Shown here piece after piece: positions 412 to 1,789 of a stretch of 64,000 bases of DNA (positions are counted from its first letter, which is position 1; each line of letters starts with the position of its first letter). The DNA is taken from NCBI RefSeq assembly GCF_000332175.1, contig NZ_KB235914.1:3902868-3966867 (forward strand). Direction: 5' to 3'. The position numbers and the translations under genes were made by a program. Origin of the DNA: Pseudanabaena sp. PCC 6802 (GTDB taxonomy: Bacteria; Cyanobacteriota; Cyanobacteriia; Pseudanabaenales; Pseudanabaenaceae). Below the pieces are notes generated by a model. That model worked only from the letters and a program-made list of their open reading frames with translations. It did no database searches and was not told the origin of the DNA.

Positions 412-1789
412 ATGACTTCAGATAATCTTATTGGTTTTCAAACATTATATACACTCTGGGCAGAGAGTCTCGATCAATCTTTTGATGGCAGAAAACTTCA
501 ATTAACTGTTGTCAATCAAGAAGAGGCGTATAATCAGTTAAACGAGAAATATAATACTGCTTACATTGAAGATGACAAAATCGAGATAGTTTTAGTTAAT
601 GATGAAATAAAGATTTTTTATGATAAAAACACTTTTCTAAAAGATTTTAATGATGAGGATTTAAGCAAAGACTTTGCAATCATCAAATATAGCAATGAGT
701 CGTTTATTTTTTATTCTCATGATGATCAAAAGAAATATGGGCAAAATCTTAACAAGGAAATTGTAGAACTAACGGAAGATCTATTAATTGAAAATACTTG
801 CTATTATTCTAAAATCCTGGACTTAATGAAGGAAAAACTCGCAATTTATCATGCATCAGCTAATCGTGAAATTGTCATTGCTTTCATTCCAATTCAAGAA
901 CCTATCTTTTGTATTGGTTATCCATCAATCAAAACCGAGATCCCGGATTGCAGCCTTAAAAAAATTTATACCAGGCTTGAGAGCGATCTTCAAAAAAAAG
1001 ACTTCATAGGTTTTATAAAGATTCAAATATGCAAATTATTAGATGTTTTTGACAAAGAGAAAAGATATGTTGAGTTCCTACGCAACTTTGAGAAAATTCT
1101 TGATTTGGCAGAATTAGACTTTGAAATATATTTGAGGAACTTTTCATTTGAGGAAGTGAGAAATAAATTTAGAGAGAGCAAAGAAAAATATTTGCAATCA
1201 ATTCAAGAGCAAAATAATAAGCTTTACTCAAGAGCAGGAGCATTAGTTGTTTCAGTCTCTGCTTCTGTTTTTGCTTCGTTCAAGTTTAATAGTGATTCAA
1301 ATTCAATTGGAGCTTCCTTAATTCTATTTGTTTATGTTCTGTATAGTATCTATTGTTGTTTAGAATTTGCCTCTCTTAAGGATGATATTTCTATCCTTCA
1401 AGAGGATTTAAGAGAAGACTTAAAAGTGTTTAAAGAAAAGCTACCTAAAGCTGCTGATATTTTAATAAATGATTCTTCTAAGCTGGAGAGCAAGATCGTT
1501 AAGACTAAGGATAGACTAATGATCTTATACTCTTTTATTGCTTTATCAAATTTATCTGTATTTGTCCTTATTTCTCTTCAAACAGGATGGTATTGCTCCG
1601 GCAACCTGAGATATTACAGGAGATACGGTTGTTTCAAGGGTCACTACCTAAAAAATGCACGCTCTATCATTGCCGGAGCAATATTTACTTGCGATTATTT
1701 TCTGGGGGCTGGTCTTTCTTCTTTTTCATTACATGATTTGGATTGAGCTTCGAAAGCATAACCCAGATACTGACTTTACTACATCATGA
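412..1789 (+). pseudogene. Coiled-coil membrane protein with C-terminus disrupted by a miniature element
   Basis: The present frame runs from ATG 412 to TGA 1746 (444 aa). I do not recognise the family. Residues 1-270 are soluble and highly charged. Two hydrophobic segments follow at about 272-290 and 298-322, then a charged helical linker, then a third segment at about 368-390. The last 51 residues look unnatural because they are encoded by an inverted-repeat insert at 1591-1683 and a shifted frame beyond it. Removing 91 nt (89-bp element plus one TA copy) joins codon 393 to a 35-residue tail containing a fourth membrane helix (AIIFWGLVFLLFHYMIWIEL) and ending at TGA 1787-1789, giving a 428-aa, 4-TM protein. 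It is AT-rich and follows the NdpA-like gene by 2 nt. The present product probably lacks its last helix; function is unknown. Confidence 0.7.
1591..1683. mobile_element. 89-bp miniature inverted-repeat element with TA target duplication
   Basis: A perfect 14-bp inverted repeat, TATTGCTCCGGCAA at 1591-1604 and its complement at 1670-1683, bounds this segment. Taking TA as the duplicated target (1591-1592 and 1682-1683) leaves an 89-bp element with 12-bp terminal repeats. TA duplication is the hallmark of IS630/Tc1-mariner transposases, so this may be a MITE moved in trans by such an enzyme. The support is internal: deleting the element plus one TA restores an open frame with a transmembrane tail in the host gene. 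It encodes nothing itself. Confidence 0.75.

Follow-up and report, generated by a model that had tools for sequence, protein, structure and literature searches.

An IS630-type miniature element very probably replaced the C-terminus of a DS1-like membrane protein in Pseudanabaena sp. PCC 6802

Gene pair and reading frames at the insertion site

The stretch of DNA analysed here (64,000 nucleotides of the Pseudanabaena sp. PCC 6802 genome, referred to as the window) begins within an NA37/YejK-like gene, the 3′ part of which occupies positions 1 to 409 of the forward strand. The complete gene starts 602 bp before the window and encodes 336 amino acids. Its stop codon lies 2 nt before the ATG of a membrane-protein gene on the same strand, whose present open reading frame extends from 412 to 1746 and encodes a 444-aa protein distantly resembling DS1_2. 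The frame runs through a 93-bp element (1591 to 1683, forward strand), base 1591 of which opens codon 394. As anticipated in the original prediction, the last 51 residues of the protein derive from the element and from positions 1684 to 1743 read out of frame.

With the element taken out and a single TA kept between the flanks, the frame encoded 428 amino acids ending in the tail YLLAIIFWGLVFLLFHYMIWIELRKHNPDTDFTTS, followed by a stop. What was originally the 3′ end of the gene now lies detached at 1684 to 1789 (forward strand); together with the TA at 1591–1592, it encodes this tail of 35 residues, which comprises a fourth hydrophobic helix and is terminated by TGA. Removal of 89 bp plus one TA had been proposed to give such a tail, and it does. 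The net insertion of 91 bp shifts the frame by +1. Tails of at least 35 codons with a 19-residue window of this hydrophobicity were obtained in 0.09% of dinucleotide shuffles of positions 1684 to 1900, and when every TA of the window was examined the figure was 0.2%, which accords with the expectation that the tail would seldom arise by chance, the criterion of length and hydrophobicity having been picked only after the tail had been seen. Codon preference of the tail favored the restored frame (+1.1 versus −8.3 and −8.6).

Excision of Tc1/mariner-type elements normally leaves a footprint. The proposal that excision restores the frame exactly therefore holds as a description of the pre-insertion allele and not for excision as an event. 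An empty site, another of the checks suggested with the original prediction, was not found among genomes of other genera.

A MITE family and a resident IS630-family element

Counted with both TAs, the 93 bp consist of 89 bp and a duplicated TA, the size originally given. The element carries perfect 14-bp terminal inverted repeats (TATTGCTCCGGCAA and TTGCCGGAGCAATA) with a TA at each side, as had been described; the left repeat (1591 to 1604, forward strand, TA target duplication included) is 100% complementary over 14 nt to the right one (1670 to 1683).

A genome-wide search, one of the checks suggested with the original prediction, revealed 13 further copies, giving 14 on three contigs with 82–100% identity. 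Two of these 13 are identical to the window copy, so that three are identical in all, and mean column identity across the alignment of all copies was 94%. TA flanks most copies, with a one-base variant in a few. The flanks of the copies are unrelated to one another, which demonstrates that they are not segmental duplicates. This dispersal bears on the idea that the 444-aa frame is ancestral and the inverted repeat coincidental. An uninterrupted frame through the element speaks for such an origin, but the occurrence of the same 93 bp in 13 other contexts refutes it, and the 444-aa C-terminus, which was looked for as a point against the insertion, was present in none of the homologues found. The probability of an ancestral 444-aa frame is practically nil.

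Of 16 places in the genome that matched the DDE_3 family, 11 hold an IS630-type element whose left end is TATTGCTCCGGCAATGA (CCGG). Most of these elements are approx. 1,135 bp long, both TAs counted, and a DDE_3 transposase of 346 aa (IS630 family, E 2.7e-61) is intact in the best copies. The right end of the MITE (1667 to 1683, reverse strand) is identical to the first 17 nt of this autonomous element. Thus, a full insertion sequence with matching ends, which was to be sought as a further check, exists in the same genome. Resemblance to the IS ends continues through the subterminal region of the right MITE end to approx. 29 nt. The right end of the IS, TATTGCCTTGGCAATA, has 3 mismatches within its first 15 positions, and both MITE ends are copies of the IS left-end type. 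The interior of the MITE showed no match to the IS, which is therefore its likely mobilizer and not a proven direct parent. Mobilization in trans by the resident IS630-family transposase would best explain the shared ends.

A TA target, a DDE_3 transposase and imperfect terminal repeats are features held in common with IS630/Tc1-mariner insertion sequences such as ISY100 of Synechocystis (PMC2170065) and IS1471-like elements; the MITE differs from these in encoding no transposase and in its two ends of left-end type. The transposase of the resident IS is 41% identical to the annotated enzyme of the IS1471 family, and its identity to plasmid IS630 transposases reaches 48%. The IS ends were not clearly present in one relative whose transposase is 64% identical (G043). 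An intact MITE was not found in 96 sampled relatives, and its ends gave no match when other GTDB genomes were scanned.

The strong RNA fold of positions 1591 to 1683 (−33.6 kcal/mol, z −5.5) would suit a structural or regulatory repeat, be it a hairpin, a terminator or a REP-like sequence, rather than a transposable element. Such a repeat would, however, explain neither the TA at both ends nor the possession of the same ends by a transposase-bearing IS, and near-identical copies dispersed in unrelated flanks make it very improbable, as does the clear interruption of at least one further gene, a Uma2 ORF. The element is a true MITE of the IS630/Tc1-mariner type, mobile in the fairly recent past and inserted at a TA site, in agreement with the family assignment first made for it.

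MITEs of Anabaena sp. 90 resemble it in having short terminal repeats, no need of coding capacity, multiple copies and a habit of interrupting genes, 15 out of 147 being located in disrupted ORFs. They differ in that no matching IS accompanies them, whereas the ends described here match a resident IS630 element (PMC3542288). The insertion itself is textbook: transposons ordinarily interrupt genes, and MITEs in cyanobacterial pseudogenes are established (PMC3542288).

Other copies of the MITE were observed in or beside further genes. One (C1:256152-256244, L075) splits a Uma2 (PF05685) ORF into halves covering profile positions 2–80 and 91–156, and two more (L079 and L070) are located inside or adjoining Uma2 ORFs. 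The right flank GCTATAGCCA is common to three separate IS/MITE insertions (L012, L040 and L041), which suggests that this site is a favored target or belongs to another small repeat.

Relationship of the gene pair to the DS1 family

The upstream protein matched NA37 (Pfam, E 1.1e-37) and the YejK model (E 6.8e-36). It also matched DS1_1_antiphage with an E value of 1.5e-9. Its 37 bits fall far below the cut-off, which is 330, and indicate a homologue rather than an equivalog; of the two models, YejK fits better than DS1_1. No homologue of this protein was detected outside its own genome among 386 genomes of the phylum. With the PF04245 profile, NA37 was found in 3 of 58 relatives and in 2 of 386 phylum genomes, the own genome being counted in both. 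The GC content of the NA37 and membrane-protein genes is 30–31%, compared with 47.5% for the window, and this low value together with the rarity of NA37 in the phylum fits horizontal acquisition of the pair. The abundant GCGATCGC-type motifs of the genome and its gene content fit a cyanobacterium.

The distant family of the membrane protein surfaced solely through PHROG 5023 and the phage collection. The 428-aa form had no homologue in 194 relatives, plasmids or genome contigs, and a viral scan with the single protein found none. When residues 1–393 were compared with phage records by tblastn, a distant homologue came up in MT836560 (E 4e-3), directly 3′ of an NA37 ORF, and through this homologue 12 records of plasmids and 7 of phages were reached. 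NA37 lies directly upstream in 12 of the 13 homologous phage and plasmid loci inspected, which is the gene order of the window locus; the thirteenth, in Cupriavidus (L088), is a short ORF of 203 aa that lacks NA37. All five homologues scanned matched DS1_2_antiphage with E values from 9e-15 to 1.5e-29, below the equivalog cut-off. Against a profile built from 12 phage and plasmid homologues the window protein scored E 7e-11 (best of 1000 shuffles: 0.07). It gave no direct match to the DS1_2 model at E 0.1, and its membership in DS1_2 is therefore reached only through intermediates. A single-sequence AlphaFold model (pLDDT 37) was of no use.

Judged by profile homology and gene order, the window pair is probably a very divergent member of the NA37 plus membrane-protein family that includes DS1_1 and DS1_2 (NCBIfam NF053868 and NF053869). 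It shares with these an adjacent NA37/YejK gene followed by a membrane-protein gene, both apparently distantly homologous. It differs in its great divergence, far below the equivalog cut-offs, and in the replacement of its C-terminus by the MITE. The DS1 names in NCBIfam presumably refer to the DefensePredictor work. The DefensePredictor paper describes a validated defense unit with a YejK domain (PMC13092281). By analogy, an anti-phage function of the window pair may be supposed.

What the insertion adds to a commonplace event is the identity of the gene hit, which probably comes from an NA37 plus membrane-protein module that was named only recently and has no mechanistic explanation. Phages and plasmids of Proteobacteria carry the module as cargo; in the present case it would occur, with much diverged sequence, in a cyanobacterial genome.

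Two further observations concern NA37 genes. In a genome of the same class (G274) an NA37 gene adjoins a gene for a 580-aa protein with three hydrophobic helices (L066:1757-4573, reverse strand); this pair was rejected as a homologue (BLASTP E 0.078, no profile match). In the genome studied here, an HTH_37 (XRE-type) gene, a type known from toxin-antitoxin pairs, is located 1.5 kb upstream of the NA37 gene (L055:560-865, reverse strand).

Loss and replacement of the native C-terminus

The explanation that we favor starts from a 93-bp MITE that would have been moved in trans by the resident IS630-family transposase. Its entry point would have been the TA dinucleotide that follows codon 393 in the membrane-protein gene, the net gain of 91 bp moving the frame by +1. 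This gene would be the downstream partner of NA37 in an AT-rich module that was acquired horizontally and is distantly akin to DS1_1/DS1_2. The protein would retain its conserved core and three hydrophobic helices, lose the native fourth helix and tail, and gain 51 foreign residues. Insertion of a MITE into a DS1-like membrane-protein gene with replacement of the native C-terminus is very likely as a whole. It draws direct support from the existence of a MITE family, from an IS whose ends match, from the exact arithmetic of the reading frame, and from what homology and gene order show for the module.

The original prediction held that the last helix was cut off. This applies to the native C-terminus, which was replaced; abolished function need not follow. 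The conserved core and the part aligning with the family lie almost wholly before the insertion, and members of the family vary most in their tails. In homologues from Methylobacter, Pseudoalteromonas and Klebsiella phage P7641 the chain stops a few residues past helix 3, and two homologues carry long Pro/Ala-rich tails. With the tail so variable and several homologues ending after helix 3, loss of function is not established. No homologue aligned by sequence with the restored tail, relatives of which had been sought as a check. In one homologue, encoded by Acinetobacter phage MD-2021a, a fourth hydrophobic helix is present along with a short basic end, placed as in the native tail.

These comparisons would agree with a tolerated insertion, in which the 51-residue tail encoded by way of the MITE stands in for a C-terminus that is variable and dispensable, leaving the module functional. 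The MITE is open in the frame used, and the new tail contains a moderately hydrophobic segment (KD 1.38). Furthermore, miniature elements give host proteins new codons in other bacteria: QMITE2 forms the C-terminus of enhC in Coxiella burnetii (PMC5896051), and Rickettsia palindromic elements supply new codons to a host protein (PMC10969869). Those cases involve other element families and host genes; here, in contrast, a native last helix was displaced. That helix is strong (KD 2.25), and the codon preference of the native tail suggests past coding selection. Moreover, basic residues and a weak hydrophobic segment added to a membrane protein could well disturb its folding. A tolerated insertion is thus conceivable, with the odds somewhat against it, and we infer that the altered 444-aa protein is impaired. 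It is rather unlikely that the MITE exchanged the C-terminal membrane segment so as to leave a DS-1-like effector with altered function and a gene that was not killed. If true, the transposon would contribute to diversification of the variable tail of a defense protein. As a natural disruption of the C-terminus, the insertion indicates which part of the membrane protein should be probed for function. With its strong RNA fold, the MITE may perhaps also affect mRNA stability at the 3′ end of the gene.
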